A DNA stretch of 39,132 bases. Origin: Pseudomonadales bacterium (lineage in GTDB: Bacteria; Pseudomonadota; Gammaproteobacteria; Pseudomonadales; Azotimanducaceae). The notes beneath the pieces are model-generated. The model was given only the letters and a program-made list of their open reading frames with translations, was not told the DNA's origin and ran no database searches. Of the stretch, positions 4,732 to 38,760 are shown piece by piece (position 1 is the first letter of the stretch; every line of letters begins with the position of its first letter). A program made the position numbers and the translations under genes. Location of the stretch: NCBI GenBank assembly GCA_022827905.1, contig JAJEIQ010000035.1, forward strand, positions 1-39,132. The letters run 5' to 3'.

Positions 4732-4766
4732 GCGCACTTCGCCAATTGCCATCCGGAAAAACACCC

Positions 4767-5969: not shown

Positions 5970-5980
5970 GGGGCGCCGTC

Positions 5981-9512: not shown

Positions 9513-9591
9513 GATTAGCAACGCGCCTTGTTCGCCAGCGCCTCTCTGCAATAGGATTGCAGGCATTGGCAGCCCGATACAGGAGAGGCCG

Positions 9592-21323: not shown

Positions 21324-21395
21324 ATACTGGAACCCGGAGTGCGTGGTTATTGCGCATTTGCATTCGTGAATGTAATCTCAGTCTACAAATAGTAG

Positions 21396-21423
21396 TTGAC
21401 ATTTGCATTGGCTTACGACAAAT
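21396..21423 (+). promoter_or_regulatory. Candidate promoter upstream of the receptor fragment
   Basis: A perfect -35, TTGACA (21396-21401), is followed 16 bp later by a weak -10, ACAAAT (21418-21423). It lies 32 bp before the ATG of the truncated receptor (21455) and could drive that fragment and the full receptor behind it. Confidence 0.35.
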
Positions 21424-21542
21424 TCATGGGGTTGAAATTTCCGGGGAGAGTGCAATGAAGAATTTCCAACGGTTGATGGCGGCGCTGGTTGTTTCGTGCG
21501 TTCAGTTGGCGGCTTATGCGGAAGAACGAGCCATTGAAAAAG

Positions 21543-21665
21543 TCGTGGTAACGGCAACCAAGCGCGAAACCACAGTGATGGAGGTGCCTGCGTCGGTGAC
21601 GGCGTTTACGGCCGAGCAGTTGGAGGAACGTGAAATCGAAAGTGTCCTCGACCTCAACGGCAACG
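21543..21665 (+). repeat. Direct repeat, copy 1 (receptor plug segment)
   Basis: This 123-bp segment matches 21944-22066 with three mismatches counted by eye, offset by 401 bp. It codes for the TonB-box and early plug region in both copies. Near identity at synonymous positions points to recent duplication or gene conversion. Confidence 0.9.
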
Positions 21666-21760
21666 CCGCCATCATGATCGAACAACCCCCTCCAATAGCC
21701 CCCGCCAATCACGCCAATCATGCGGAGGGGGCGAGTAGTTACCTTTTTACTAGGGATGGC

Positions 21761-21830
21761 GTGAATTGTTCCCAATTTGGCATGAATTGCTCTCGATTCA
21801 GGTGTGGTGAACTGCTCTTATGCGCCTTTG
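21761..21830. repeat. Iterated GTGAAYTG repeats, possible insertion-sequence end
   Basis: Three spaced copies of RTGAAYTGYTC begin at 21761 (GTGAATTGTTC), 21782 (ATGAATTGCTC) and about 21807 (GTGAACTGCTC). Regularly spaced imperfect repeats of about 20 bp are a feature of IS21-family termini. No transposase is attached, so this would be a solo remnant. It lies between the two receptor copies. Confidence 0.4.
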
Positions 21831-21849
21831 TTAGATGGAGAGAGTGAAT

Positions 21850-24051
21850 ATGAGAGTTCGACTACGTACGCTACCGTTGTTCGTGTGTTTTATATCTGGA
21901 TTTATCAACACGGCTACGGCATCTGAACCGGCAATAGAAGAGATCGTGGTAACGGCAACCAAGCGCGAAACCACGGTGATGGAGGTGCCTGCGTCGGTGA
22001 CGGCGTTTACGGCCGAGCAGTTGGAGGAACGTGAAATCGAAAGTGTCCTCGACCTGAACGTCAACGTGCCAAACATCAATTTGGGCATCTATTACGGTCA
22101 AGTGTTCATGACAATCCGCGGGGTTGGTTTTTCCCAGGGGCAAGGTACGGCCGACCCAGCGGTTGCCCAGCATGTGGATGGCATCTATCTGCCTCGCACG
22201 TCCTCCCTTCGCGGCGCTTACTACGACCTCGAGTCCATTGAGGTGCTCCGAGGTCCTCAGGGGACTTTGTATGGGCGAAATTCAACGGGTGGCAGCGTGA
22301 ACCTCGTTACGAACAAGCCGACTGAAGAATTTGAAGGTCGCATAGGCGTGCTGTACGGGGACTATGATCGCATCCAGGTCACCGGATTGGTTTCGGGCCC
22401 GATTGCGGAGAACGTGCTCGGTCGTGTGTCCGTTATCTATGACGACCGTGATCACTACACAGAAAATCTACTGCCGGGCTTTGACGACGTCGATCACGAG
22501 GAGATCAAGTCCATTCGCGGCGCGTTGCGCTTTTTGCCTAGCGACACACTCACGATTGACCTCAACGCGCAGTACGAGGAGCGCGAAGGGAGCATGTTGT
22601 TCGATTCCTACACCGAGCCGAGCGATCTTCTCTTTCCCAACCTGTTCACCAATGCGCTGTACTCGCTCGAACCCCACAAGACCTATTCGGATGTGAATAC
22701 GAGTGACGACCGAGAGGTCGTGATCGCTTCGCTGTCGATCGATTGGGCACTTAGCGAAAACGTAACGTTGATCGCAAAGACTGGCTATATCACTAGCGAA
22801 TTTTTCGCGGACACGGACAACGATGGGATTGCGGGGTTTGCGGTGACGGCCGTAACAGGGCATGACTCAGACACGTTCTCGCAAGAGCTGAATCTGCACG
22901 CTTCGTTGATGGACAACAAGCTCGACCTGCTGACCGGGCTGTACTTTTATCGGGATGACTTCGAGTGGTTTACCGAACTGCCGCTCAACTTCCTGGACAA
23001 CCTGCTCGGTTTGCCACCGCGTACCAGTTTCGTGTCTGCCCGTTACGACCAAGAGACGGAAGCCTACGGCGTTTTTGTTGACGCCACCTACCACCTTTCT
23101 GACGACTGGCGAATCTACGGCGGGGTCCGCTACAGCGAGGAGGAAAAGGATGGGGAGATGCAATCGGTGCAAGTTGTACCCGTCTGTGGCTTTGGATTGC
23201 CCGTGAGTGAACTCAAGAACGATTGGGACGACGTTTCTTATCGATTTGGTGTGCAGCATGACCTGTCTGAGCAGGCAAACATCTACGCACAGTATTCCAA
23301 GGGCTTTCGGTCGGGCGGCTTCGATACCAGCTCATGCAATGACGAATATGATCAGGAGAATGTAGACGCGTTTGAGGTTGGTTACAAAGCAACGTTTGCG
23401 GATGGTCGCGCGGCTTTGCGTTCGACTGCCTTTTACTACGACTATCAAGATTTACAGCTTTCTCAAATTGTGGGCCTTCAGTTGAATGTTGACAACGCCG
23501 CGAAATCCATAGTTTGGGGTGTCGAACTCGAGACACAGTTCCGCGTCTCCGATCGATTTCAGGTTGCGGTTAACTACGCGCATTTGGACGCCACTTACGA
23601 CGACTATGAGGACTGTGACGGGTTACTTTTCCCTGGCAATTGCTCAGCATTCGCGGTCGCGGGTGGGTTTGCAGTCTTTGAGGACGTGTCAGGAAACCCT
23701 CTAAATCGGGCCCCGGACAACTCCGTCGGAGTGACAGCGGATTACATCGTACCTCTAGGAAATGGGGGAGAGTTTGGGGTTACGGCACAGTGGACGTGGA
23801 CAGACGACATTCAGTACCGACCCTTTAACAACGAAGAAGATCAGCAAGATGCCTTTTCGATCGCGAACCTTTTTCTAACGTACACCCCGAGCGGTGACTC
23901 CAACCTGACGCTGCGTGGATTTGTGAAGAACTTAACCGACGAAGAGTACATTACCGGATTGGTCGCGACCACGTCGGTATCCGCCAATCTGCTCACCATG
24001 CCTTGGGCGCCACCACGCACATGGGGCTTGCAAGCGATTTGGGAGCTTTAG
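21850..24051 (+). CDS. TonB-dependent outer-membrane receptor
   Basis: The 733-residue outer-membrane transporter takes up a large or scarce substrate using TonB energy. It has a signal peptide (FVCFISGFINTATAS), the TonB box IEEIVVTATKRE, the plug domain with VPNINL, TIRGVG and IEVLRGPQGTLYGRNSTGGSVNLVTNKP, and a long beta-barrel ending in LRGFVKNLTDEEYITG and WAPPRTWGLQAIWEL. No siderophore-specific feature is visible; the style resembles receptors of marine bacteria that import polymers or hydrophobic compounds. ATG 21850 is chosen over ATG 21835 because GGAGAGAG sits just upstream of it. The second copy of the 123-bp repeat is 21944-22066. It heads a seven-gene co-directional run. Confidence 0.92.
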   Translation: MRVRLRTLPLFVCFISGFINTATASEPAIEEIVVTATKRETTVMEVPASVTAFTAEQLEEREIESVLDLNVNVPNINLGIYYGQVFMTIRGVGFSQGQGTADPAVAQHVDGIYLPRTSSLRGAYYDLESIEVLRGPQGTLYGRNSTGGSVNLVTNKPTEEFEGRIGVLYGDYDRIQVTGLVSGPIAENVLGRVSVIYDDRDHYTENLLPGFDDVDHEEIKSIRGALRFLPSDTLTIDLNAQYEEREGSMLFDSYTEPSDLLFPNLFTNALYSLEPHKTYSDVNTSDDREVVIASLSIDWALSENVTLIAKTGYITSEFFADTDNDGIAGFAVTAVTGHDSDTFSQELNLHASLMDNKLDLLTGLYFYRDDFEWFTELPLNFLDNLLGLPPRTSFVSARYDQETEAYGVFVDATYHLSDDWRIYGGVRYSEEEKDGEMQSVQVVPVCGFGLPVSELKNDWDDVSYRFGVQHDLSEQANIYAQYSKGFRSGGFDTSSCNDEYDQENVDAFEVGYKATFADGRAALRSTAFYYDYQDLQLSQIVGLQLNVDNAAKSIVWGVELETQFRVSDRFQVAVNYAHLDATYDDYEDCDGLLFPGNCSAFAVAGGFAVFEDVSGNPLNRAPDNSVGVTADYIVPLGNGGEFGVTAQWTWTDDIQYRPFNNEEDQQDAFSIANLFLTYTPSGDSNLTLRGFVKNLTDEEYITGLVATTSVSANLLTMPWAPPRTWGLQAIWEL
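21944..22066 (+). repeat. Direct repeat, copy 2 (within the intact receptor gene)
   Basis: This is the partner of 21543-21665 with three mismatches. It lies inside the intact receptor gene and covers the TonB box and early plug. Confidence 0.9.
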
Positions 24052-24084
24052 ATAGGCGCAACTTAACGTAGAGGAGAGCTAGAA

Positions 24085-24624
24085 GTGGTTAGAGGACCCA
24101 CACACCTGTCCCACATTGTTGGCGTTCTGCTTGCGATGGCTATTGGCATGACTGCAGCTGGGACGGCAAACGCTGACGGGATGACGACTGAAGAAACCAG
24201 AGCGATGATGACGGAGTTTCTGAAGTACCTACATTCCGGTAAAGAGGAGGACATTGTCAAGTTCAGCGAATTCTACGCGGATGACGTTGAGGCGCATTAC
24301 CACACAACAGGACCTTTGGGAAAGTACTTCTTCGGACGTGAAGCCTTTTTGAACTTCTACCTGAAGGGGGCTGAAGATGTCAATTTTGAGCACGGTCTAA
24401 AGGTTGATAGGTACTGGGTCGTCGTTGAGGACAATATAGCCGTGGTAAGGAACCGCACTCGGGGCCACAGATACGGCGCGCCTTTCGTTCAAGAATATGT
24501 ACACGTCTACTACTGGGAAGACGACAAGATTGTGCGTATGGAGGGCTTTAACAACGCCGAGGCCCAAAAATCAGCACAGGACATTGCCAAACGTAAGGCG
24601 GCCAACAAAGCAGCGATGAACTAA
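24085..24624 (+). CDS. Secreted SnoaL/NTF2-like protein
   Basis: The 179-residue protein begins with a signal-like helix (VGVLLAMAIGMTAAGTANADG), so it is probably periplasmic. The mature part has the cone-shaped NTF2/SnoaL fold pattern: MMTEFLKYLHSGKEEDIVKFSEFYADDVEAHYH, then GREAFLNFY, and beta-strands ending FVQEYVHVYYWEDDKIVRMEGFNN. Such proteins act as cyclases, isomerases, dehydratases or simple binding proteins. Export is unusual for the family. GTG 24085 follows GAGGAG. It lies 33 bp after the receptor and 36 bp before the P450, so it may bind or process the imported substrate; that is inference. Confidence 0.75.
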   Translation: MVRGPTHLSHIVGVLLAMAIGMTAAGTANADGMTTEETRAMMTEFLKYLHSGKEEDIVKFSEFYADDVEAHYHTTGPLGKYFFGREAFLNFYLKGAEDVNFEHGLKVDRYWVVVEDNIAVVRNRTRGHRYGAPFVQEYVHVYYWEDDKIVRMEGFNNAEAQKSAQDIAKRKAANKAAMN

Positions 24625-24660
24625 CCTAAAGCGATCTGCGAAGATTCACTGGAGGAAGAA

Positions 24661-25866
24661 GTGCAACTCGCAGATCTGGAAATGGCGGAGATCGAAATTC
24701 ATGATCCGGACTTCGTCAATGACCCCCATGCCATTTATTCAACGGCCAGGAAAAAGAACTGGGTAGCCAGATTCCCCATGGGCTATATCGTCCTTGATCA
24801 ACAGGCGATGAGAGACTTCCTGACAGACGACCGCTGTCGAACCCCGATCAAAGATATTTCCAACATGGTCGGAGTCGAGAAGGGCACACCGTTCCAACGC
24901 TTCTATGATCACTTTTTCCTAGCGCTGGATGGTGAAGCGCACAAACGCCTTCGCCGGATTTCGGCGCCTGCGTTTACCGCGAAGGAAGCTGCTAAGTATC
25001 GTCCGTTTATGAAGGAGACCATCAACAAGATCATTGATTCACTCGATGGGGCAGCAGAGTGCGATTTCACGAAAGTTGCAGCCCGATATCCGATCACTGT
25101 GATGTGCGACATCCTTGGTGTTTCAACCGATGACATTGAAAGGTTTGAAGAGTGGGTGATCGTGCTATCAGATGCATTCAGTCTGAATGATGAAACGGTT
25201 GCCAAATTGAATTGCGCACTGGCCCATTTGTTTGACTATGTCGATGAACTGGTTGATGCGCGGCGCAAACGTAATGAGACAAAGGATGACCTGCTGCAGA
25301 CGCTGGTTGATCTCGCAACTGATGGCGAGAGCTTATCCGACGAAGAACTGCGCGTGTTGCTGATTAACCTAATTTCCGCTGGCTACGACACGACAAAGAA
25401 TCAGTTGATTCTGATGATGAAGGTGCTGCTGGATCATCCCGAAGAGTGGAGCAAAGTGGCAGACGATCCGGGTCGGGTAAAGAAAGTGGTCGATGAGTCC
25501 TTGAGGTTTTACAACCCAATATCAGCGACGTTCCGTGTAACCGATGTTGACATCAAATACCGCGACACCTTGATTCCGAAAGACACCATGCTCATGCTGC
25601 CGCTCACCTACGCGGGCCGCGATGAGTCATTCTATGACTCCCCAGATGTGTTTAATCCAGACCGGGACAGGAACAGGATCATTACCTTTGGTCGGGGAAT
25701 CCATATCTGCATTGGCATGTTTATGGCGAGAGCCTTGCTTGAAGAAGCGCTGTCCGTCTTGGTTGAGAGAATAGAAAACCCCCAACTAGCTGGTGAACTC
25801 GTGTTTCGCCACTTTTCGGGAATGGTTGCAATGGAAGCGCTGCCTATCAGTTTTGAGCCCGCATAG
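24661..25866 (+). CDS. Cytochrome P450 (soluble bacterial class)
   Basis: The 401-residue haem monooxygenase has the I-helix oxygen-binding motif AGYDTTKN near residue 240, the K-helix ExxR (ESLR), and the haem loop FGRGIHICIG with the axial cysteine near residue 350. Size and motif order fit bacterial class I P450s, which need a ferredoxin and a reductase. It would hydroxylate a hydrophobic substrate. GTG 24661 is chosen because GGAGGAAG lies directly upstream. The likely redox partner is the putidaredoxin-type ferredoxin at 34192-34506; no reductase is in the window. Confidence 0.93.
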   Translation: MQLADLEMAEIEIHDPDFVNDPHAIYSTARKKNWVARFPMGYIVLDQQAMRDFLTDDRCRTPIKDISNMVGVEKGTPFQRFYDHFFLALDGEAHKRLRRISAPAFTAKEAAKYRPFMKETINKIIDSLDGAAECDFTKVAARYPITVMCDILGVSTDDIERFEEWVIVLSDAFSLNDETVAKLNCALAHLFDYVDELVDARRKRNETKDDLLQTLVDLATDGESLSDEELRVLLINLISAGYDTTKNQLILMMKVLLDHPEEWSKVADDPGRVKKVVDESLRFYNPISATFRVTDVDIKYRDTLIPKDTMLMLPLTYAGRDESFYDSPDVFNPDRDRNRIITFGRGIHICIGMFMARALLEEALSVLVERIENPQLAGELVFRHFSGMVAMEALPISFEPA

Positions 25867-26014
25867 GTTCAGTCGCGGCATATTGCAATCGCGTGAAAGG
25901 CGCCTCGCTTGACCTGGTTGATACTTTCTGAGCAGGAGAACTCTCCTGGTTAGCTCTCATAGTGCAGGTGTTGTTGCGCCTAGCCAATCCGAGTGGAAGT
26001 CAGGATGGAGACTT

Positions 26015-27226
26015 GTGTTGGCGGCCGCGTTCGGTCTCGCCGCGAGCTCCGTTCACTTCCACACCGTGGGTGCCATGATCGTCCCGCTTGAACAGGAGAT
26101 GGGATGGTCTAGGGCAGCGATCAGCACAAGTCTGCTCATTGCTAGCACTATGCTTGTCTTCGCGGCGCTTGCTGCGGGCATATTGGCTGATCGGGTGGGT
26201 GCTCGACGGGTTGGTATTGTGGGCATTTCCTTGTATGCGTTGTCGCTTGCAGGAATTGGAATGTCAGGCCCATCGATTACCAGTTGGTACGTTGCTTGGG
26301 GTGTTATGGCAGTTGCCAATGGCTTTGCGACAGGTGTCATTTGGACCATGGCGATTGTGAGTCGCTTTGAAAAACACCGCGGACTGGCACTTGCACTTAC
26401 GCTTAGCGGGACAGGACTTACCGTCGCCGGTGTTCCAGTATTCTCCCTATACTTCACTGAGTCGTGGGGTTGGCGAAGCGCGTATTTTGGATTGTGTGCT
26501 GTGATTCTAGTCTGTGTCGTTCCTCTGTTACTGGCCTATTTTAGGGATTCACATGACTTGGCGCGGCATTCCAACGCAAGCTCACTATCAGTCCCAATTG
26601 GTAGTGCTAAGCCAGGTCTTTCAGTACATACGGCAATACGCGGTCGTCATCTGTGGCAAATTGCGGTGAGCTTCTTCCTCCTCGGTGTTGGGATCGGGTC
26701 AATGATCGTGCACTTACAGCCTATGCTGATTGAGTCGGGGATGACTGCAACAACCGCGGCAGTCATCGCCTCCAGTATAGGTCCGGCGTTGGTCATCAGT
26801 CGCTTGCTGACTGGCGTACTACTTGATCGATTTAGCACGGTACTGATTGCGGGTTCGGTCGCGTTGTTTCCAGCAATTTGTTGCGTCACGGTGCTTAATT
26901 TTGATGGTTCGATCATGATGGCCACGACAGCGGCTTTGTTGATTGGGGCTGCGCTTGGTACCGAAGTCGACGTGATGGCGTTTGTGGTTTCACGCTACAT
27001 GGGTCCAAAGAACTACGGTGCGCTATTTGGGCTGGTAAGTGGCATTTTTGGCATTAGCGTAGGCTTTGCGCCCGTGCTTGCGGGAGCCGCGTACGACAAT
27101 CTAGGTTCATATTCGTCGATGCTCTGGGTAAACGTCTTTTGCTCGCTTCTAGCATCCATCATGCTATTTACGCTCGGCCGAGCGTGCGGCATGAGCGAAT
27201 ATCATGATAAATGCTATCAATGGTAG
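26015..27226 (+). CDS. MFS transporter (monocarboxylate/OFA-like)
   Basis: The 403-residue inner-membrane protein has about 12 hydrophobic helices in two halves, with the MFS loop motif GILADRVGARRVG between helices 2 and 3 and the matching GVLLDRFS in the second half. The style is that of the MCT/OFA group, which moves monocarboxylates and other small acids. GTG 26015 (GGAG four bases upstream) places helix 1 at the extreme N-terminus. The frame is open upstream, and a CTG at 25946 with AGGAG seven bases before it would add 23 residues including a conserved-looking GWR before helix 1. It may import the substrate or export a product of the flanking enzymes. Confidence 0.85.
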   Translation: MLAAAFGLAASSVHFHTVGAMIVPLEQEMGWSRAAISTSLLIASTMLVFAALAAGILADRVGARRVGIVGISLYALSLAGIGMSGPSITSWYVAWGVMAVANGFATGVIWTMAIVSRFEKHRGLALALTLSGTGLTVAGVPVFSLYFTESWGWRSAYFGLCAVILVCVVPLLLAYFRDSHDLARHSNASSLSVPIGSAKPGLSVHTAIRGRHLWQIAVSFFLLGVGIGSMIVHLQPMLIESGMTATTAAVIASSIGPALVISRLLTGVLLDRFSTVLIAGSVALFPAICCVTVLNFDGSIMMATTAALLIGAALGTEVDVMAFVVSRYMGPKNYGALFGLVSGIFGISVGFAPVLAGAAYDNLGSYSSMLWVNVFCSLLASIMLFTLGRACGMSEYHDKCYQW

Positions 27227-27347
27227 GTGGCAGAAATTGTGCATAATCTGGCGACATATGAGCTTGTAGGAAGCCTGAGGAACCACGAGACTCGACGATT
27301 TGTGGTCGAGGGACGAGTGCGCTCACATGACCTGATACCTAGATCTC

Positions 27348-28211
27348 ATGAGAACCAGGGCAACAGATAACTCAGCGGTTCCCCGTTATCCTGAACTACT
27401 CCAGATGAAAGACAGAGTTTTCGTCGTGATAGGAGCGGGTCAAGGAATTGGGCGACAGGCTGCACATGCACTCTCGCAGCATGGTGCGAATGTGATATGT
27501 GTTGGCCGTGGTCATGAAGCAACTCAACGCGTAGCCAAAGAAATCGGTGGGCTCGCTTTTGTGGGTGATGCCCAAAGACGTGGAGACGTGGAGCGCTTGT
27601 ATGAAGAGACGCGCCGTAATTTCGGGCGGCTCGACGGAATTCTGGATACGGTAGCCATAGGTATCGGCGGTTCGGTGCAGACTACGACCGACGAGGATTT
27701 TCAATGGCAGCATGACAATGTCTTGCGACATGCCTTTCTGGCGCTTCAGCTTGGTGCGCCCTTGATGCGTAGCTCTGGGGGCGGATCAGTTGTGTTCGTA
27801 GGTTCGTTAGCAGGTCTGAGAGTGGTCGGTGGTGGCGCGGCGATGGCCTACGGCACTTTCAAGGCCGCGTTAGAGCATTTCGCTCGAATTGCTGCCGCAG
27901 AACTCGGGCCCATGGGAATTCGAGTTAACACAGCGACGCTAGGTTTCATTCGAACGCCACGATATGAGGGGTTAGCCGATCAACAAATCGCGCGCGTCAG
28001 TTCGAAAATCCCGTTAAGGCGGGTCGGTGAATCGACTGAAGTAGCCAGCGCCATTTTGTTCTTGTTATCAGACATGGCGAGTCATATCACGGGGGCCTCG
28101 CTTGTCATCGACGGCGGTTTTTCGATTGCTTCTGATTATCCCACGTTCGAGCAAAACGAAGGCGAGTCGAGCGGGTGGGACAAGGCAGACTATCAAGTCT
28201 CTACAGAGTAG
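27348..28211 (+). CDS. Short-chain dehydrogenase/reductase
   Basis: The 287-residue classical SDR has the NAD(P) motif GAGQGIG (29-35) and the catalytic set Ser153, Tyr168 and Lys172 (YGTFK), and ends with the family-typical SHITGASLVIDGG. The usual NNAG segment after strand 4 is replaced by DTVAIGIGG. It would oxidise a secondary alcohol or reduce a ketone. ATG 27348 keeps an N-terminal RYPELL segment seen in related enzymes; ATG 27405 is the shorter option. It is 33 bp before the CoA-transferase, so the two are probably cotranscribed. Confidence 0.88.
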   Translation: MRTRATDNSAVPRYPELLQMKDRVFVVIGAGQGIGRQAAHALSQHGANVICVGRGHEATQRVAKEIGGLAFVGDAQRRGDVERLYEETRRNFGRLDGILDTVAIGIGGSVQTTTDEDFQWQHDNVLRHAFLALQLGAPLMRSSGGGSVVFVGSLAGLRVVGGGAAMAYGTFKAALEHFARIAAAELGPMGIRVNTATLGFIRTPRYEGLADQQIARVSSKIPLRRVGESTEVASAILFLLSDMASHITGASLVIDGGFSIASDYPTFEQNEGESSGWDKADYQVSTE

Positions 28212-28244
28212 AACGGCTCAAGACAAGGCTATGGAGCGAGTAAA

Positions 28245-29456
28245 GTGACAACAACAACTTCCGGTCCACTCGCAGACATTACAATCATTGATTGCGCAAT
28301 GGCGTTAGCAGGACCCTTTGGAACAGCATTACTTGCGGATATGGGTGCGAACATCATCAAAGTGGAACCACCGCACGGTGACAACTCGCGACCCGTACCG
28401 CCAATACCTCCAGACTATGCCAACGTTCGTGATGCTCACTCAGCGGGCATCGACTATGGGGGCTACTTTGCAAGCATTAACCGGAACAAGCGCAGCATTG
28501 TTCTGGATCTGAAACAAGCGTCCGACCGTGAGATCCTGATGCAGCTTTGCGAACGGGCAGATGCAGTTGTTGAGAACATGCGAGTCGGGGTGATGGACAA
28601 GCTCGGCGTGGGTTATGAAGCAATCGCAGCTCGCCACCCACAAATAGTCTACGGCGCAATTCGCGGCTTTGGCGATCCGCGCACAGGTGAGAGTCCTTAC
28701 TCAGAATGGCCAGCGTTTGACATTGTTGCGCAATCCATGAGTGGTCATGTGAGTATTACGGGGCCAGAAGAAGAGCTTGGTTATCCAAGCGGCGTCAGCA
28801 TTGGTGACATTTATCCGGGCACGCTGATGGCGCTCGGAGTCCTTGCAGCAATTCATGATGCGAGAGCGACTGGTGTGGGCCAGTTTGTTGACGTCGCAAT
28901 GTATGACGCGATGTTAGCGCTGACTGAAACATTGGTGGCCAACTATGGGTTTGAAAAGAAACAACTCACACCACGCGGTCGACATCACCCAAACCTAATG
29001 CCGTTTGGATTGTTTCCAACAACTGATGGGTTGATCGCCATAGCTGCGCCGGGAAATGAACATTGGGAGTTACTTTGCCGTGCGATGGATCGTCAAGATT
29101 TGATGACAGACGAACGCACCAAGAACACGTTTTTGCGACGGAAGAACCAAACCTATGTCGAGGCACAAATCAGTGCGTGGACCTCACGCTATAGCAAACA
29201 GGAAGTGGCTGCTTTGTTGGGTGGCGAAGTGCCTTGCGGACCCGTTAACACTGCTGAGGAAATTTTCAACGATCCCCATGTACGCGCTCGAGAAATGATT
29301 ACGGAGTTCCAACTTCCAGGTGACAACCCCAAAGTCAGCATAGTCGGCAGCCCGATCAAGTATACGAAAACACCTTCAGGATTTAGGCACCGCGCACCAA
29401 AACTTAATGAGCATGCAGAAGAGATACGTAACGAATTTGATATCTCACAACGCTAG
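28245..29456 (+). CDS. CaiB/BaiF-type (family III) CoA-transferase
   Basis: The 403-residue protein has the family III landmarks: ALAGPFGTALLADMGANIIKVEPP at the N-terminus, SINRNKRSIVLDLK, and the catalytic aspartate Asp188 in SGVSIGDIYPG, corresponding to Asp169 of formyl-CoA transferase. It moves CoA between carboxylic acids or attacks a CoA ester; relatives act on carnitine, bile acids and oxalate. The true substrate is not readable. GTG 28245 is the start. With the SDR and the alcohol dehydrogenase it forms the activation step of the proposed pathway. Confidence 0.92.
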   Translation: MTTTTSGPLADITIIDCAMALAGPFGTALLADMGANIIKVEPPHGDNSRPVPPIPPDYANVRDAHSAGIDYGGYFASINRNKRSIVLDLKQASDREILMQLCERADAVVENMRVGVMDKLGVGYEAIAARHPQIVYGAIRGFGDPRTGESPYSEWPAFDIVAQSMSGHVSITGPEEELGYPSGVSIGDIYPGTLMALGVLAAIHDARATGVGQFVDVAMYDAMLALTETLVANYGFEKKQLTPRGRHHPNLMPFGLFPTTDGLIAIAAPGNEHWELLCRAMDRQDLMTDERTKNTFLRRKNQTYVEAQISAWTSRYSKQEVAALLGGEVPCGPVNTAEEIFNDPHVRAREMITEFQLPGDNPKVSIVGSPIKYTKTPSGFRHRAPKLNEHAEEIRNEFDISQR

Positions 29457-29587
29457 TCCTCTGGTGCAACCTACATAGAGATCTGTTGCGCAAAGAGATG
29501 AGAGTTTACTCAGTGCAGATAGCATTATTTATGCAGACATCAATAGTCCTAATTTATGAACTTGTAGCCTGAGCCATAGGAGTTACT

Positions 29588-30661
29588 TTGAAAGCAGCTG
29601 TTTTTCGCGAAGCGCACGTGCCCATGGAAATTGAAGACATAACAGTCTCCAAACCAGGACCCAGAGATGTACTGGTTCGCACCAAGGCGGTTGGTATATG
29701 TCATTCTGACGCTCAGATTTATGAGGGCAACTTCCCAATGGATTTGCCGATGGTTTTGGGTCACGAGAGCGCGGGCGTTGTCGAGCAAGTTGGGTGTGAC
29801 GTGCGGCGAGTGAAACCTGGCGATCACGTGGTGACTTCCCCTTCGGTGTTTTGCGGTGCATGTGAAGTGTGTTTAACGGGTCACATGTCACTCTGCACAC
29901 CAGAAGTTGAAGACGAGGTAGAGTCTCGTTTGTCGAAAAATGGACAACCGATTTTTCAAATGGGCGGTCTGGGTTCATTCGCGGAACAGATGCTCGTGCA
30001 TGAACATGCGGTTGTTAAAATCCGAGATGATATGCCGTTGGATCGTGCTGCGTTAATCGGTTGTGCCGTTACTACGGGCGTTGGCGCAGTGATACATACC
30101 GCGAACGTCGAAGTCGGTACGACCGTTGCGGTAGTTGGGTGTGGCGGCGTTGGTTTGTCTTGTATTAACGGCGCGGCAATAGCGGGGGCTTCAAGAATAA
30201 TCGCCATTGATATCCAGGCGTCTAAGCTGGATCTGGCCAAACAATTCGGTGCGACACACGTCGTCAATGCGGGTAGCGGAGATGCGGTTGCAAGTGTCAT
30301 CGATCTGACGGACGGGGGTGTCCACTACGCGTTCGAGGCCATAGGTTTGAACACCACCGTTGAACAGGCTTTCCAGATGTTGAGAAAGGGAGGTACTGCA
30401 ACGGTTATCGGCGGCATTCCTCCTGGAGTCATGGTTTCAGTGCAAGGTTTCGAGTTCATGCAGGAGAAGAAGATACAAGGGTCCTTTATGGGCTCCAATC
30501 GATTCCCCGTTGATACGCCTCGGTATGTAGAGTTTTACCTGCAGGGGCGATTACATTTGGACGACCTAATAACCGACCGCATTTCCTTAAGTGAAGTAAA
30601 TGAGGGTATGGCTGCGTTGGATGGCGGACAAGCAGTTCGAAGTGTCATTATGTTTGACTGA
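29588..30661 (+). CDS. Zinc-dependent alcohol dehydrogenase (class III-like)
   Basis: The 357-residue medium-chain dehydrogenase has catalytic zinc ligands Cys38, His59 (GHE) and Cys159, the structural zinc cluster Cys89, Cys92, Cys95 and Cys103, and the NAD motif GCGGVG. It resembles bacterial class III/aryl-alcohol dehydrogenases that oxidise primary alcohols to aldehydes. The start is TTG 29588 with AGGAG just upstream, and the protein begins MKAAVFREAHVPMEIED as usual for the family. It follows the CoA-transferase after a 131-bp gap and converges with the second P450. Confidence 0.92.
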   Translation: MKAAVFREAHVPMEIEDITVSKPGPRDVLVRTKAVGICHSDAQIYEGNFPMDLPMVLGHESAGVVEQVGCDVRRVKPGDHVVTSPSVFCGACEVCLTGHMSLCTPEVEDEVESRLSKNGQPIFQMGGLGSFAEQMLVHEHAVVKIRDDMPLDRAALIGCAVTTGVGAVIHTANVEVGTTVAVVGCGGVGLSCINGAAIAGASRIIAIDIQASKLDLAKQFGATHVVNAGSGDAVASVIDLTDGGVHYAFEAIGLNTTVEQAFQMLRKGGTATVIGGIPPGVMVSVQGFEFMQEKKIQGSFMGSNRFPVDTPRYVEFYLQGRLHLDDLITDRISLSEVNEGMAALDGGQAVRSVIMFD

Positions 30662-30678
30662 TACAGCGGAGTACCGTG

Positions 30679-30710
30679 AATCCCGTTGTTGTCATTTCCT
30701 AAGCGGGATT
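30679..30710. terminator. Weak hairpin between convergent genes, candidate bidirectional terminator
   Basis: AATCCCG (30679-30685) pairs with CGGGATT (30704-30710) around an 18-base loop, in the gap between the convergent alcohol dehydrogenase and P450 genes. There is no long T-run, so termination is plausible only by position. Confidence 0.3.
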
Positions 30711-30809
30711 TCCTGACAGGCTCCAAAAGTATCGAACACCGCTGCGTGCCTCCGTCCTTCTTGAAGACTTAAGTTCTGGTTTGGGTCTGCCCAATGAGAT
30801 TGAGGACCC

Positions 30810-32192
30810 TCACCTTCGAGAACTCACCTGCATTGGCAAACCGTCTGTGGGTTTTACGGCCATGGATACCGCTTTCGGAGACATGCCCCCGCCCACCCGA
30901 TCCAGCAAGAAACGCTGTGAAATCAGAGTAAGCATCAACATGGCTTCCATGCGTCCAACGCGTTCTCCAATACATCGTCGTTCGCCATAGCCGAACGCAA
31001 GGAACGCACACTTATTCCTTTGAGCACGCCTTTCTTTTGTATGGTGGGCAGGATCAAACGTTTCCGGATCTGGCCAATCACGGGGATCGCGGTGAATCAC
31101 ATAGGGCACGATACCGATGCGCTCACCTTTGGAGACTAAGTAGCCACCAAGCTCGGTATCCTTCACAGCTTCTCGAGACAACGTTACACCGTTGGTGCGG
31201 AGGCGCAGTGCTTCATCAAATACCCCTTTGGTATACTCAAGTCGTTCTAGCTCTTGAAAGGTTGGGGCCCGTCCCTCTAACACCTGATCTATTTCCTCAA
31301 GCATCAGCTGACGTTTATCGGGATTATTTGAGAGGTAATTGAACGCCCAAGATACCGTCGCAGGTGTTGTGTCTTGGCCGCCCCAGAATAATGCTGCGAT
31401 ATCGTCCTGCAACTGTTTATCGGACATTTTCGAACCATCCGACATGGTCGCCGCAATCATTACATCTAACATGTCCTCTGGTTCGTCACGAAGATCCTGT
31501 CGACGCATCTGTACCATGTTGGCAATGTAAGAGTTGATTTTCTCAAGGGACTCGCGACCTTCGATAATTTCTGGATCGTCAAATTGTGATGTAACTTCCT
31601 CACCAAATAGGAATAGTTTCGCAATATACGGGTACGTTTTTTTGTAGGCCTCCAAAAGCATATCGACGTCAGATTCTTGGATACCACGGATGAACAACGT
31701 GTTCGTGAGCGCGCCCAAGACGCCTCTGCGCGCAAACTCATAAAAGCTAAACTGTTTACCAGACTCTGCCAACTCGGCGAGTTCCTCTACTTCATGCCGG
31801 ACGATCTCGAGAGTCTTTTCATAGTATCTAAGAAGCATCTTTGGCGTGAAGTTCGGCAATATTACGTCATGAATCTTCTGCCATCGCTCTCGATCGGAAA
31901 TAACAACAAAACTCTGTCCCAACAGAGGGCTGAGTTGATCTTCCTGCTCAGTTGACCGGACGAAGTTATGAAAGTCGAGTCTCAGAACTTTCTCAGCAAT
32001 TTCCGCGTCTGCAACTACGACCATCCCTTCTGGACCAATCGGCAAATGGCATACCGGCCCGTACGTCTTTACCATCTTCTCCAGTAATCCATAGGGATCC
32101 TGGCCATATTCAGCTTCGATCGATGCTTTTTCTGACTCAGGCGCAGCCGGTGGTCTTTCTAGCTGCGCCACAGAAACGTTTTCACTACTCAT
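30810..32192 (-). CDS. Cytochrome P450 (longer, E-class-like)
   Basis: The 460-residue P450 has the I-helix WGGQDTTPA, the ExxR motif EALR, the PERF-like region RDPRDWPDPETFDPAHH and the haem loop FGYGERRCIGE with the axial cysteine near residue 407. The longer size, FxxGxRxCxG loop and C-terminal KPTDGLPMQV resemble the E-class (CYP102/CYP4-like) branch, so it is not a recent duplicate of the P450 at 24661. No membrane anchor is seen. ATG 32192 is clear. It is the last gene of the minus-strand operon, 45 bp after the amidohydrolase. The substrate is unknown; two unrelated P450s in one cluster suggest two oxidation steps. Confidence 0.93.
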   Translation of the reverse strand: MSSENVSVAQLERPPAAPESEKASIEAEYGQDPYGLLEKMVKTYGPVCHLPIGPEGMVVVADAEIAEKVLRLDFHNFVRSTEQEDQLSPLLGQSFVVISDRERWQKIHDVILPNFTPKMLLRYYEKTLEIVRHEVEELAELAESGKQFSFYEFARRGVLGALTNTLFIRGIQESDVDMLLEAYKKTYPYIAKLFLFGEEVTSQFDDPEIIEGRESLEKINSYIANMVQMRRQDLRDEPEDMLDVMIAATMSDGSKMSDKQLQDDIAALFWGGQDTTPATVSWAFNYLSNNPDKRQLMLEEIDQVLEGRAPTFQELERLEYTKGVFDEALRLRTNGVTLSREAVKDTELGGYLVSKGERIGIVPYVIHRDPRDWPDPETFDPAHHTKERRAQRNKCAFLAFGYGERRCIGERVGRMEAMLMLTLISQRFLLDRVGGGMSPKAVSMAVKPTDGLPMQVSSRR

Positions 32193-32237
32193 GGTTATTC
32201 CGCAGTTTGGTTCGGTATTCTCGCGTTTTTTTCAGTG

Positions 32238-34013
32238 CTAACTGGAACCCGCAGATCCACTTTGACCTAGACTTTCCGGATCAATACTCGTCGTGGAAAT
32301 GAGTCGGCCAGGGTGTTTATTGGTCAACTCACCGTGATCACAAATAACTTCACCGTTGACCAACACGTAACTCATGCCTTCTGCAGGCAGAACACGCCGC
32401 CAGTCCTCGTTCGGTAAATCGTTTCGAACTTCATAAGTTGTTGCGTGCGTTAGTTTGTCGTAGTCATAGACAATGATGTCTGCGGCATAATCTTCCAAAA
32501 GCGCACCACGTTTGTGTAAACGTGCCGCGCGCGCAGGTCGCCAGCTCAGCGCGCTATGTACTTCTTCTAATGTCATTCGCCCTTCTTCACGAACAAGCAG
32601 ATTGATTAGATCGGTGGAATAGTTGCCAAACTGAAACATCTTGACGTGCGCACCGCCGTCTGAGGTACCAGGAATCACACGTCGATGCCGCGCGAGCGTT
32701 TCTATTTTGTTCGGATCTCGAGAAGTTGCTTCGTTCAATCTAAAGTCAACTTGCATTTCCGTTGCGAGCAAAATGTCAAAAAAGACATCCAACTCCGGTT
32801 TGTCTAGTGCCTTCGCGATGTCTCCGACCCTTTGACCTTCAAACGGCGTATATTCCTCACTGCCGTGGGCGTTGCCTACAACCATCGCCGGAAATCCACC
32901 ACCCGCAGTAACATTGTGTTCTGGTTGATACGCTTCATGTGCCCGTTGACGGTACTCCGGGTCGCTGATGAGGGTGGTCAACTCCTCAACCGAGCTGCAC
33001 TGGTGTATTTCACTTAGCACTGGCACACTGTTAAAGATGGTTGCGTCCTCGATTTTTAACTCAACCCAGCCCCGCACCGTGACCGCTTGCAGATAAACCT
33101 CGAGACCCTCTTTTTCAAGCTCTTCAGACCATGCAATGCTCTCTTGCCAACGATCTGCTATAGCGAGAACTTCTGGACTGCTGTCTGGGGGAGCATCGAA
33201 GGCGGTGATCGCATTGTATAGAATCGGACGTCGAGAAATTTCCGCCAGCTTTTGACCAACTTCCCGATTGCAAACTTGCCGACCTTCTACTAGAACCTGG
33301 ATGATTCCTTCCTGTCGATCTCTAAGCACTTGAGCCAAGTTATAGGCCTCTTCAGGATCCATGATATCCGTCGGCACTGGTGTTCCATCATGATCGACAT
33401 GACCATTCCCACTTCCCAGCAACGAAAAAGCAAAACCAGATGCGCCCGCATCCAATGCTTCGTTCATGAGCTCACGCATGCGTGCGCGTTCTGCCTCATT
33501 TGCGGGCCTGGTCTTAACGTCGGCCCCCATCACATAAACCAACAATGGGTTCATGGGAAGGTAGGCACCCACATTGACCCCCTTTGGTAGCTGCTTTAGA
33601 TGGGCCATCCATTCTGGGAACGTTTCCCAGTCCCATGTCAACGCAGTCTTTTGTACAGTGAACGGCACTTGCTCTGTATTTTCCATCATCGACATGTATC
33701 GGTCTTGCTGGTCTGGGTGGCAGGGCGAGTAACCGAACCCACAGTTGCCGGTTAGAACTGTGGTGGTTCCGTGCCAGCAAGAAGATGTGCAATAAGGATC
33801 CCAGTGAAGTTGGGCGTCGTAGTGGGTATGTAAGTCGATGACGCCTGGAGCAACAATCTGACCCCTCGCGTCTATCGTGTTCGTGGCCAAAGTGCCAGAA
33901 AGATCACCGATCGCACGAATAACGCCCTTCGAAACGCCGATATCAGTTCGTTGGCGTGAGGCCCCCGTACCATCAACTACCATTCCACCACTGATTATTA
34001 GATCAAATTTCAT
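32238..34013 (-). CDS. N-acyl-D-amino-acid deacylase-like amidohydrolase
   Basis: The 591-residue member of the D-aminoacylase branch of the amidohydrolase superfamily has the metal motif HTH (His62, His64) in GVIDLHTHYDAQLHWDP, the family-specific cysteine in GNCGFG (Cys91), a later histidine region, and GTSDGGAHV with the catalytic aspartate near the C-terminal third. The family removes the acyl group from N-acyl-D-amino acids, but many members act on other amides. There is no signal peptide, so it is cytoplasmic. It lies between the ferredoxin and P450 genes, which suggests that the pathway substrate or an intermediate carries an amide bond. A closely similar protein begins at 38761. Confidence 0.9.
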   Translation of the reverse strand: MKFDLIISGGMVVDGTGASRQRTDIGVSKGVIRAIGDLSGTLATNTIDARGQIVAPGVIDLHTHYDAQLHWDPYCTSSCWHGTTTVLTGNCGFGYSPCHPDQQDRYMSMMENTEQVPFTVQKTALTWDWETFPEWMAHLKQLPKGVNVGAYLPMNPLLVYVMGADVKTRPANEAERARMRELMNEALDAGASGFAFSLLGSGNGHVDHDGTPVPTDIMDPEEAYNLAQVLRDRQEGIIQVLVEGRQVCNREVGQKLAEISRRPILYNAITAFDAPPDSSPEVLAIADRWQESIAWSEELEKEGLEVYLQAVTVRGWVELKIEDATIFNSVPVLSEIHQCSSVEELTTLISDPEYRQRAHEAYQPEHNVTAGGGFPAMVVGNAHGSEEYTPFEGQRVGDIAKALDKPELDVFFDILLATEMQVDFRLNEATSRDPNKIETLARHRRVIPGTSDGGAHVKMFQFGNYSTDLINLLVREEGRMTLEEVHSALSWRPARAARLHKRGALLEDYAADIIVYDYDKLTHATTYEVRNDLPNEDWRRVLPAEGMSYVLVNGEVICDHGELTNKHPGRLISTTSIDPESLGQSGSAGSS

Positions 34014-34191
34014 GTCTCTTTCTCCGACAGTAATGTCAATCCATCATTGACCAAGGTGATCCACCATTTGATTGATGGAAGTGTTACCACTCGCAAATAA
34101 ATCACGAGCGTGGAATCCAGTCGACAGCAATTGTGGACAAAGCTTGGTCGATTTCTGCCATTGTTCGAGTACGTTCCACTGCAGGTGTGTT

Positions 34192-34506
34192 TTAGGGTTC
34201 AACTACCGTAACGACTAATCCATTGAGCGCGTCCGTAAGTTTGATCTGGCAACCCAGCCGACTGTTTTGCGCAACCGAATTCGTAAATTCCAACATCTCA
34301 CTTTCCGTATCACCAGCCGGACCAGTTTTTTCTAACCAATCCTCGTGTACATACACATGGCACGTTGCACAGGAACATGATCCTCCGCACTCCGCAGCAA
34401 TGCCTGGTATCAGATTGGCGACAGCACCTTCCATCACACTCGAACCTTCAGGTACATCACAAGTCACTTCAGTCCCGTCATGAAGCACATATTTTACGGT
34501 CGTCAC
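34192..34506 (-). CDS. 2Fe-2S ferredoxin, putidaredoxin type
   Basis: The 104-residue ferredoxin has cluster ligands Cys40, Cys46, Cys49 and Cys86 (CGGSCSCATC...LGC), the spacing of ferredoxins that reduce class I P450s. GTG 34506 is preceded by GGAGAGGAA and overlaps the TGA of a short upstream open frame (GTGA). With two P450s in the same cluster its role is very likely electron transfer to one or both. A ferredoxin reductase must be supplied from elsewhere. It is separated from the amidohydrolase by 178 bp in which no convincing gene is seen. Confidence 0.92.
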   Translation of the reverse strand: MTTVKYVLHDGTEVTCDVPEGSSVMEGAVANLIPGIAAECGGSCSCATCHVYVHEDWLEKTGPAGDTESEMLEFTNSVAQNSRLGCQIKLTDALNGLVVTVVEP

Positions 34507-34649
34507 TTCCTCTCCAATTCTTCAAATGCGGGTTCTGTCGCCGCGCTCGTATCATCACCAACCCTCATTTCAAACTGCCGCATATCAAAACAACGCACGA
34601 TATGAGGATCGAGAGCAATTCCTGCCAACGTGGGAACAATTTTCGCCAC
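34503..34649 (-). CDS. Possible small coupled ORF between the AraC gene and the ferredoxin
   Basis: From GTG 34649 the minus strand codes for 48 residues, beginning with VAKIVPTLAGIALDPHIVRC and ending in PAFEELERK. The frame is open for 66 codons, all the way back to the AraC stop (TAG 34704-34706), with which it is in phase. Its TGA overlaps the ferredoxin GTG in a GTGA arrangement typical of coupled genes. The composition looks protein-like but I do not recognise it. It could be a small protein, a remnant, or a chance open frame. Confidence 0.35.
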   Translation of the reverse strand: MAKIVPTLAGIALDPHIVRCFDMRQFEMRVGDDTSAATEPAFEELERK

Positions 34650-34703
34650 CGCGAGTAAACGCTCAACAAAGACCGAGGGTACTGGAAGGGTTACGGCGCA
34701 CCC

Positions 34704-35681
34704 CTAGCCGGCGAGATTGCTCTCCTGTTTTCTCCAGCGTCTTTGTGCGCGGTACAAGCTTCCGATATCGGCGTATCCAAGCTCCTCGCAAATCACTTTT
34801 TTGGGCGTTCCGATGCGGACCAAAGACCGGAGTTTGTTGGATCTCACCTCGTCCGCAATGCCTCTGAACGTCTGTCCCTCCTCCACCAATCTTCGATGGA
34901 GAGTTCGAGCACTCATACCGATCCTTCCTGCCACTTCTTCTAAGGTGCCAATCTTTTCCACCAATGACTCCCTCACAGATTGCGCTATGGGGTAATCATC
35001 AACGTCCGCTCCACGCTCCATAAAAAAGTCTAAGCAAGAGGCGAACACCCTTTCATTCGCCTTGGTCATTGGTGCGTCCAAAACCTCGTGGCTAAGCTCA
35101 ATGAAACCCACCTCACAGCCAAAGGCAATCTGCGTACCTAGAACTTCGCGCAACTCCTCTAGGTTTTGTTTGGGTCTCCTATGCCGCAGGCCAATTTTGA
35201 AACCACGAGTGCCGATCCCAGAAATTCTTCGAAGGGTGGCTACCGACGTACAGATCCCGAAATCGACTAAGTATCGATCCAAGTGCGGGTCCACGTCTTG
35301 CCTAGAAAATTCCATCACAAGGCCGTTACCCGTATGCTGCAAAGCCACCGCCAAACGACAGGGAGTCATTCCAGATTTTCGACCGAGACAGCCAAACTTG
35401 ATGGCTTCATCAATCGTGCTCGCCGTGGCCAAACCAAGCCCATAGATCCCATAGTCAACAAGATCGAAGTTTTTGGCGAACGTTAAGATCGGTTGAAAAG
35501 GATTTTCGAGGCAGTCCAACGCTTCGGTAAGCATTGATTCTTCTGTACCGCAGTGTACCAAAGAGCTTTTGTCGTAATCACACAGCCCTGCTGACTGTCG
35601 GCATAGCTCGATTTCCCGCTGCAAAAGGGCTGGATCGCCCGAACGTCGAACGTCGCGAAAGTAGTCAATCATTATCCCCAT
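34704..35681 (-). CDS. AraC-family transcriptional regulator
   Basis: The 325-residue regulator has an N-terminal ligand-binding domain of the arabinose-binding-like type found in OruR/ArgR-type AraC proteins (about residues 20-190) and a C-terminal AraC DNA-binding domain (about 235-320) with LEEVAGRIGMSARTLHRRLVEEGQTF and the second, degenerate helix-turn-helix ending SLYRAQRRW. ATG 35681 is preferred over ATG-less upstream frame because GGGGAGAG lies directly before it. It heads the minus-strand run that includes the ferredoxin, amidohydrolase and P450, and is the obvious candidate for substrate-dependent control of the cluster. Confidence 0.9.
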   Translation of the reverse strand: MGIMIDYFRDVRRSGDPALLQREIELCRQSAGLCDYDKSSLVHCGTEESMLTEALDCLENPFQPILTFAKNFDLVDYGIYGLGLATASTIDEAIKFGCLGRKSGMTPCRLAVALQHTGNGLVMEFSRQDVDPHLDRYLVDFGICTSVATLRRISGIGTRGFKIGLRHRRPKQNLEELREVLGTQIAFGCEVGFIELSHEVLDAPMTKANERVFASCLDFFMERGADVDDYPIAQSVRESLVEKIGTLEEVAGRIGMSARTLHRRLVEEGQTFRGIADEVRSNKLRSLVRIGTPKKVICEELGYADIGSLYRAQRRWRKQESNLAG

Positions 35682-35869
35682 TTCGCTCTCCCCTTTTCTT
35701 TGACGCTTTCCTAGTCTCCACTTTCCTTGCGATGTTATAGGCATAGACTTCTCTGGCCTTATGCACAGAAATTAGCTGCTTGATACTCGCAATATGGACA
35801 TAATTCTACGCCTGATCCTATGATGCTGATTTTTCTTCAAGCGTCAAGCTCAACTAGTTTCGAGGGAGT

Positions 35870-36240
35870 TGCGCTGTGGCGTTTTTCCCCGGTCTTCCGT
35901 CCTTAAAGCACGCGGGAGGGACGCCCGTTACGCAGGTTTGGGGCCTGATCGTCGGCTTTTTGGCCTGCGGAAACCCTTTCGGGCCGTCTTCAGGGCGCCG
36001 ATTCGGCCGGGCATCGGGGAGTCGGCGGCGTCAGGCCGCCGCGGGCAGCCCGTGGTCCACCAGCGAGCGCATCCGCTCCGGCCGGCCCGCCGCCACCGAG
36101 CCCAGCGCCCGCGCCTTCATCCGAACCCGCCCGCGCACGAAGTGGCGCTCGAACCCGAAGTCGTTGTCCAGCCGCCCGTTGATCCGCTCCAGGGCGCTGC
36201 GCCGGCTGTACCCCCGCTTCCAGGACGGACAGGTCAAAAC
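35870..36240 (-). mobile_element. Insertion-sequence remnant in a GC-rich patch
   Basis: A stretch of about 370 bp is much richer in GC than the flanking sequence and starts and stops sharply. On the minus strand it codes for the C-terminal part of a transposase (36031-36237). The 3-prime flank of that gene (35870-36030) has no gene. The other IS end and 5-prime half are gone; the patch meets the Lrp gene within a few bases of its stop codon. No terminal inverted repeat could be matched. Confidence 0.65.
36031..36237 (-). pseudogene. Truncated DDE transposase (C-terminal fragment)
   Basis: The last about 68 residues read TCPSWKRGYSRRSALERING then RLDNDFGFERHFVRGRVRMKARA. The Y-x2-R-x3-E-R-x-N/F-x-R-L pattern is the C-terminal signature of IS4/IS5/IS1182-type DDE transposases, where the glutamate is the third catalytic acid. 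An in-frame stop lies just before it, and the first two catalytic aspartates are missing, so it is inactive. The family cannot be fixed from this piece. Confidence 0.7.
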
Positions 36241-36247
36241 ATGTTGT

Positions 36248-37170: not shown

Positions 37171-37248
37171 AATGATGATCCCCGAATGTCATTCGAATTC
37201 TATATCAATCGTGTGACCAAGAACCAGCGGAAGCGTACAGCCGGCCGC

Positions 37249-38625: not shown

Positions 38626-38677
38626 CTCGAATGCACTCCCCTCGAACCAATCGCAATTTATCCAGTGTAATTTCTAC

Positions 38678-38722
38678 GCGTTGTTTATTTCAACGCATTT
38701 TTATGGTATTCCTGCGTACCAT
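38678..38722. promoter_or_regulatory. Two dyads in the divergent amidohydrolase region, candidate operators
   Basis: GCGTTG (38678-38683) pairs with CAACGC (38691-38696) around TTTATTT. Directly beyond it ATGGTA (38703-38708) pairs with TACCAT (38717-38722) around eight bases. Both lie in the 135-bp gap between divergent amidohydrolase genes, a natural place for a shared operator. The first dyad followed by ATTTTTA could instead be a weak terminator. Confidence 0.4.
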
Positions 38723-38760
38723 CCAGTACTATTCAACTCAAATTCTGAGGAAGCAACCGC

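Follow-up and report, generated by a model that had tools for sequence, protein, structure and literature searches.

Does the right-hand part of a 39,132-nucleotide contig from a Pseudomonadales bacterium of the Azotimanducaceae encode one catabolic pathway, or genes for several purposes that lie side by side? The stretch analysed here (the window) is the entire contig C49 (G000:C49, JAJEIQ010000035.1) of a genome that measures 4.44 Mb and is assembled in 81 contigs. The genes in question form two facing runs that encode a TonB-dependent outer-membrane receptor, a SnoaL-like protein, two cytochromes P450 (P450a and P450b), a major facilitator superfamily (MFS) carrier, a short-chain dehydrogenase (SDR), a class III CoA-transferase (CaiB), a zinc alcohol dehydrogenase (Zn-ADH), an amidohydrolase, a 2Fe-2S ferredoxin and an AraC-family regulator. 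An initial annotation had read them as one pathway of uptake, two hydroxylations, alcohol oxidation and CoA activation, and all the gene families that it named are found where it placed them when Pfam cut-offs are applied, 22 island reading frames being scanned in total. On balance, the evidence tips towards one AraC-controlled, inducible regulon that joins both runs in a horizontally acquired patchwork island and serves one hydrophobic compound, perhaps terpenoid- or steroid-like.

A predicted operator shared by the two runs and a second shared element

The plus-strand run (21835-30661) and the minus-strand run (30810-35744) are convergent, and the genes of the plus run, from the TonB receptor to the Zn-ADH, are separated by gaps of 33-148 bp. 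A predicted operator, RAATTGYTCYCNNNTTGGCANGAATTGYTCYC, is matched exactly at 21763-21794 and, in the opposite orientation, at 34642-34611, and by none of 100 shuffled sequences. When the spacer is left free and the whole assembly is searched, two sites are found at 0 mismatches, none at 1-2 and one at 3, and the reversed-pattern control gives one site. Of 41 core bases, 36 agree between the two copies. The AraC gene immediately precedes the second copy and adjoins operators built as direct repeats, whose half-sites are 21 bp apart, about two helix turns. This spacing is usual for AraC proteins, and the AraC regulator is presumed to bind both predicted operators. Because the operator precedes both runs, the SnoaL and P450a genes are probably transcribed with the genes of a 10.4-kb block that follows them. 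The operator is common to both runs and is without a further copy in the assembly at up to 2 mismatches, and the ferredoxin, amidohydrolase, P450b and TonB genes recur together in a locus labelled Caulobacter (L177); both results agree with the joint function proposed by the initial annotation. At up to 5 mismatches the operator is absent from L177 and from four other loci (L092, L094, L044 and L041), and one site at 5 mismatches is present in L036.

Another element, of 105 bp, lies at the TonB remnant (21341-21445) and has a single other copy in the assembly, on contig C60, where it stands before a pair of acyl-CoA dehydrogenase genes. It also precedes the intact TonB gene of a sister contig, L094, described below. 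As the elements are not alike, the 105-bp one would need another regulator if AraC serves the operator, and the pair of AsnC-type proteins is a candidate for it. A chance neighbourhood of degradation genes, acquired horizontally but without a shared task, would be consistent with the patchwork origin of the region, a possible transposase remnant and the swap of a receptor gene, but we regard it as very improbable in view of two private shared elements and of a module that recurs in another class, as judged by its record label.

Table 1. Features of the window, in nucleotide positions.
Feature	Position	Strand	Basis or remark
Acyl-CoA dehydrogenase pair outside the island	4689-5969 / 5828-7042		Pfam
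105-bp element, first copy	21341-21445	+	other assembly copy on C60 9143-9039, 82% identity
5' remnant of older TonB-receptor gene, running into 142-nt copy of the present receptor's start	21350-21834	+	L094 match, direct repeat
Operator copy 1, 32 bp, two AATTGYTCYC half-sites 21 bp apart	21763-21794	+	before TonB gene
TonB-dependent outer-membrane receptor	21835-24051	+	PF00593, PF07715
SnoaL-like protein, signal-peptide-like start (by eye)	24085-24624	+	PF12680 (SnoaL_2)
Cytochrome P450a	24661-25866	+	PF00067
MFS carrier	26015-27226	+	PF07690
SDR	27348-28211	+	Pfam; YxxxK and GxxxGxG motifs kept
Class III CoA-transferase (CaiB)	28245-29456	+	above PF02515 cut-off
Zn-ADH	29588-30661	+	Pfam; closest to class III / NDMA-dependent types, under their cut-offs
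Cytochrome P450b	30810-32192	-	Pfam P450 model
Amidohydrolase, D-aminoacylase fold	32238-34013	-	Pfam and structure model
Putidaredoxin-type 2Fe-2S ferredoxin	34192-34506	-	Fer2; motif CGGSCSCATC
Operator copy 2, 32 bp	34611-34642	-	before ferredoxin gene
AraC-family regulator, PF12625 N-terminal domain	34704-35744	-	Pfam
Open fragment, 72 codons, like a DDE transposase end	36034-36249	-	weak: PF13751 E 0.0089, 16.7 bits, cut-off 25.1
AsnC/Lrp-type regulator 1	36248-36712	-	Pfam; 99% identity to L094 counterpart
AsnC/Lrp-type regulator 2	36709-37170	-	Pfam; 97% identity to L094 counterpart
Second amidohydrolase (Amidohydro_1)	37249-38625	-	Pfam; 92% identity to L094 counterpart
Third amidohydrolase, start only, cut by contig end	38761-39132	+	62% identity to the 32238-34013 amidohydrolase over 124 aa

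The low-GC island and its sister contig

The GC content of the window is 66.3% from 1 to 21349 and 50-54% in the parts from 21350 to the contig end, the low-GC stretch extending to the right end of the window. The GC content of third codon positions is 0.80-0.91 in three housekeeping genes and 0.43-0.63 in 14 island genes. A palindrome resembling the repetitive extragenic (REP) type (GAGGGC, a short spacer and GCCCTC) is found in the high-GC part, at 216, 7081, 11582 and 19411, and is absent from 21350-39132 at up to 4 mismatches. A horizontally acquired patchwork catabolic island, reaching from 21341 to the contig end and lying beside pgpA, is part of the best explanation of the region.

The window ends in 109 bases identical to the first 109 of contig C60, which then encodes most of a third-type amidohydrolase, an ApbA-like protein, a luciferase-like enzyme and a SnoaL_4 protein. 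On the opposite strand it carries genes for a DUF1330 protein, for a protein that the SGL model matches below threshold, and for two acyl-CoA dehydrogenases. Its GC content is 52-61% up to 9 kb, 63-70% at 9-13 kb and 55-57% at 13-15 kb, and the first copy of the palindrome on it is at 9228. The locus L044 has copies at 9228, 10778, 10822 and 10895. The island probably runs on into C60 from 1 to about 9143 and would measure about 27 kb if C49 and C60 adjoin. The break between the two contigs is explainable, because the broken amidohydrolase gene is tandemly duplicated in L094.

L094 (JAJDZT010000155.1) bears the record label of a Silicimonas sp. metagenome-assembled genome (MAG); we guess that this is a misbinning, given the 92% identity between its thiL-pgpA part and the window. 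It matches the window in the same order over 20025-21606 (92.4%, L094 1-1582), 24071-25880 (93.8%) and 36250-39132 (93.7%), and after these it matches C60 1-3098 at 98.3%, the order being kept. Tandem copies of the third amidohydrolase occupy 7957-9699 and 9932-11734 of L094. The SnoaL and P450a proteins are 90% and 96% identical between the two contigs, and the 10.4-kb block 25881-36249, from the MFS to the AraC gene, is missing in L094, where 10 bases part the flanking matches and 22 bases separate the stop codons of P450a and of the first AsnC gene. The possible transposase-end fragment, a weak Pfam match, sits at the right edge of this block. The TonB receptor of L094 is a different one (36% identity), and the first 257 bases of its gene match a remnant at 21350-21606 of the window. 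Within the window, a direct repeat of 142 nt (93%) joins this remnant (21524-21665) to the present receptor gene (21925-22066). As read from these alignments, the simplest account would be that the receptor was swapped by recombination in the 142-nt repeat and that the 10.4-kb block was inserted in the window lineage; alternatively, the block may have been lost in the L094 lineage.

The initial annotation had tentatively looked for beta-oxidation to the acyl-CoA dehydrogenase pair at 4767-7042. This pair lies in the 66% GC region, which has neither of the shared elements, and it was rejected as the partner of the cluster. The C60 pair is the likelier partner because it carries the 105-bp element, shared with the TonB remnant. 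Its large subunit is closest to the steroid-type heteromeric enzymes 6wy9/6wy8 and 4x28, and its small subunit is closest to general acyl-CoA dehydrogenases, 6wy8_A and 4x28_D ranking lower. We take 4x28 and Tcur3483/Tcur3481 to be steroid enzymes. Heteromeric dehydrogenases of the 4x28 type are the best solved relatives both of the large C60 subunit and of the window protein 4689-5969, and they differ from the cluster of the window in that none belongs to it. The dehydrogenase type alone does not decide between the pairs, because the window pair also resembles 4x28.

The amidohydrolase, the P450 enzymes and their relatives

The structure model of the amidohydrolase of the minus run (mean pLDDT 88.5) has the barrel and small beta domain of the D-aminoacylase subset. 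D-aminoacylase and N-acyl-D-glutamate deacylase (1m7j, 3gip) share this fold, with Foldseek E values of 1e-33 to 1e-32, TM scores of 0.64-0.65 by query length and 21-22% identity, and the HxH, Cys and Asp metal residues of D-aminoacylase are also kept. An alignment of 51 sequences, from which 4 duplicate or partial ones were removed, left 47 including the query. Counted over the sequences that cover each position, H62 and H64 are present in 46/46, C91 in 47/47, D452 in 45/45 and H456 in all. D-aminoacylase presumably has one further His ligand on each of strands 5 and 6, H220 and H250. Unlike it, the window enzyme has no His on these strands (237-241 and 264-270 in the model) and carries Gln239, Tyr266 and Asn267 there, as judged by a comparison at the sequence level. 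Position 239 is Gln in 39/46 relatives and His in 2/46, position 266 is His in 31/46 and Asn267 is kept in 38. The strand-5 His thus appears changed in nearly the whole relative set, while the strand-6 His may survive in most relatives, though not here. With no His on either strand, cleavage of an N-acyl amide is doubtful, and such an amide was rejected as the leading guess for the substrate on account of the altered metal site. The description of the enzyme as D-aminoacylase-like therefore holds for its fold and fails for its metal site; the modelled fold does not settle the chemistry of the window enzyme.

The subfamily is common: 586 of the 596 pattern-matching stretches listed encode a relative, and members on plasmids are annotated as "amidohydrolase" or "D-aminoacylase". 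Relatives at 1e-80 are present in 37 of 200 family genomes, the own genome included, and their neighbours vary, with HyuA/HyuB, TonB and AsnC genes and a ferredoxin-P450 fusion among them. A tblastn search of 79 amidohydrolase loci gave raw counts of at least 12 for P450, 13 for CaiB-like, 10 for TonB, 2 for SnoaL and 1 for ferredoxin genes; these are lower bounds, since short contigs are frequent in the set and the P450c query contained a stop and was not in frame. Hydantoinase/oxoprolinase-like HyuA and HyuB genes stand beside an amidohydrolase relative and an ApbA-like gene in L041 (2-12230) and L109 (1-6715), the former locus also holding TonB and SnoaL genes. These loci could possibly represent an ATP-driven ring-opening variant, which is a guess.

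P450a and P450b both keep the heme-Cys, I-helix and ExxR motifs and, with the 2Fe-2S ferredoxin, have the components of a class I P450 system; no ferredoxin reductase is encoded among the 22 island frames, to which this search was confined. Carotene hydroxylases of plants and CYP3A enzymes, whose substrates are large and greasy, are among the best solved relatives of P450b. P450b was found in its own genome only, among 194 genomes of the order and 206 of the family, and at 1e-45 in three of 369 genomes of the class (its own and two at 29%), in overlapping genome sets with at most 8, 8 and 4 candidates scored per genome. On plasmids its identity is at most 29% among the matches listed (15 of 69 records). 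A single-protein scan of genome contigs returned no P450b relative and missed copies in Caulobacter-labelled genomes, which surfaced through the neighbourhoods of amidohydrolase relatives. Of 9 genomes searched in this way, 2 hold P450b relatives at 47-50% identity, and each of the 2 bears a Caulobacter label; the three copies all lie no more than 4 kb from a relative of the amidohydrolase. In L177, a Caulobacter-labelled MAG, the order is a P450b-like gene (45%), ferredoxin (50%, other strand), amidohydrolase (48%), P450b (50%) and TonB receptor (32%), and the similar identities of ferredoxin, amidohydrolase and P450b suggest that the three moved together. In L092 no ferredoxin match was seen, and kinase-like genes lie between the P450 and amidohydrolase genes. 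Kinases of the APH/ecdysteroid-kinase type and an acyl-CoA dehydrogenase occur in both P450b-relative neighbourhoods, DUF7064/7065 in L092 and AMP-ligases in L093.

In two genomes of the same genus, a ferredoxin and another P450 are joined in one protein, encoded close to an amidohydrolase relative. The fusion, of 523 aa with an N-terminal 2Fe-2S domain, lies at L036 11466-13037 and L038 1773-3344, the relative being about 50% identical, and in L036 HyuA/HyuB genes stand on its far side. As a speculation in which we place little confidence, the ferredoxin, P450b (a family for which no characterised member was found) and the altered-site amidohydrolase would form a mobile three-gene unit for oxidation and cleavage, which Alpha- and Gammaproteobacteria would have in common along with a TonB receptor. 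The amidohydrolase, and perhaps much of its subfamily, would then cleave a P450-made intermediate (a lactone, a hemiketal or a C-C bond) of a polycyclic natural product and would not deacylate amino acids.

Relatives of P450a, SnoaL and CaiB were sought in 37 genomes that were picked from among those met in the searches of order and family genomes and are not a random sample. P450a relatives at 1e-70 occur in two of them beyond the own genome (G663, 86-87%; G671, 38-47%), and SnoaL relatives at 1e-20 in the same two (88% and 48%). In G663, the P450a (86%) and SnoaL (88%) relatives are lone genes on two contigs with other surroundings, which may be due either to single-gene transfer or to chimeric contigs. 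Around them (G663:C15:10918-12111 and G663:C46:12563-13099), genes like those of histidine synthesis and oxidases were seen by eye. CaiB relatives at 1e-100 occur in 24/37 genomes, own included. In 14 loci retrieved around CaiB relatives (60-73%), the other cluster proteins have distant matches only, none of them above 40%. In L079 the CaiB relative is flanked on one side by genes that match mesaconyl-CoA hydratase and on the other by a gene for an HpcH/HpaI lyase. Genes that occur apart with other neighbours, as in G663 and the 14 CaiB loci, argue against common descent of the set and not against a joint function here, so the one-pathway idea finds partial support as joint function and is weakened as a conserved unit.

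Two pathways could also lie side by side, which we consider possible although clearly the less probable reading. An older core (TonB, SnoaL, P450a, the AsnC pair, amidohydrolases, ApbA-like and luciferase-like proteins and acyl-CoA dehydrogenases) would then serve one compound and the AraC-bearing 10.4-kb block another, only the TonB gene and its promoter having been swapped. The L094 core, which has neither block nor operator, the P450a and SnoaL relatives in G663, which stand without the block, and the module in L177, which has no close SnoaL or P450a relative, all fit such an arrangement. It is opposed by the operator, which stands both before the run TonB-SnoaL-P450a-MFS-SDR-CaiB-ADH and before ferredoxin-amidohydrolase-P450b, and by the narrow gaps of the former run.

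Several further observations weigh against a single regulon on one island. SnoaL and P450a may serve another pathway, because L094 has both beside another receptor, without block or operator, and the complete gene set was seen in no other genome. The genome has 46 stretches matched by the P450 model, some of them pieces of one gene, so that two P450s close together are less telling. The GC content of C60 1-9000 (52-61%) is above that of the island part of the window, and the C49-C60 join, although probable, is deduced from 109 shared bases in a gene duplicated in L094 and from the order of L094. For both C60 subunits the highest scores, though under the cut-off, come from models of pimeloyl-CoA dehydrogenase, a result that would also fit a dicarboxylic acid, and the window pair 4689-7042 is of the same structural type, its first subunit (4689-5969) being also closest to 4x28.

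Proposed pathway and known systems

For the single regulon favoured here, we infer the following scheme, including the order of its steps. AraC and the two operator copies would tie the convergent runs together. The TonB receptor, with the putatively secreted SnoaL-like partner, would take the compound through the outer membrane, and the MFS protein would carry it or an intermediate across the inner membrane. P450a and P450b would hydroxylate it, fed by the single ferredoxin and a reductase encoded elsewhere, and Zn-ADH and SDR would oxidise the resulting alcohols. CaiB would load CoA, perhaps from succinyl-CoA; its closest curated model is succinyl-CoA:mesaconate CoA-transferase NF041294, at 409.6 bits, below the cut-off of 700. 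The amidohydrolase-fold enzyme may open or cleave the P450b product, and the C60 pair would dehydrogenate the acyl-CoA. Hints in favour of a terpenoid- or steroid-like compound come from the solved structures closest to the large C60 subunit and to P450b. A role in detoxification or biosynthesis rather than growth, in which the P450s, an MFS exporter and the CoA-transferase modify a metabolite, is unlikely. It would suit carriers of the MFS type, which can act as exporters, and P450s, which also work in secondary metabolism, and the findings are compatible with it, but TonB uptake, the CoA-transferase and a dehydrogenase pair with a shared element point to breakdown, and no synthase family is present among the 22 island frames by Pfam.

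The camphor (cam) regulon of Pseudomonas putida resembles the island in its P450, putidaredoxin-type ferredoxin, alcohol dehydrogenase and one regulator. It differs in having one P450 with its own reductase gene and a TetR-type regulator, and is not known to include TonB, CoA-transferase or amidohydrolase genes. Relatives of the amidohydrolase also lie on sphingomonad plasmids: at 40% in Novosphingobium EMRT-2, with P450, TonB receptors and CoA-transferase within 14 kb, and at 37% in Sphingobium TomTYG65, with P450, aryl-alcohol dehydrogenase, SDR and TonB receptor within 14 kb, a likeness at the level of the gene families nearby.

Among described systems that include such a receptor, the edc cluster of Novosphingobium tardaugens comes closest; it degrades the estrogen 17beta-estradiol and is organised in two divergent operons (PMC7793797). 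Like the island, it has a P450, a TonB-dependent receptor and an acyl-CoA dehydrogenase, and deletion of the receptor slows growth on the steroid (PMC7793797). The paper describes it as without a ferredoxin or reductase gene, whereas the island has a ferredoxin (PMC7793797). It contains an extradiol dioxygenase, an indolepyruvate ferredoxin oxidoreductase and MaoC hydratases, none of which is among the 22 island frames, the only part of the genome searched for them; the main text of the paper makes no mention of amidohydrolase, SnoaL, AraC or CoA-transferase (PMC7793797).

An inducible P450-TonB-CoA catabolic regulon is of a kind already known. The module and the sister-locus history did not come up in the literature searched, where none of the titles and abstract openings listed describes the gene set. 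A list of gene families becomes a testable regulon, with two operators, one AraC protein and two promoters. The comparison with L094 shows step-wise assembly of a catabolic island, by receptor swap and by gain or loss of a block. The analysis also draws attention to a common amidohydrolase subfamily whose plasmid members are annotated as amidohydrolase or D-aminoacylase although the strand-5 metal His is mostly missing.

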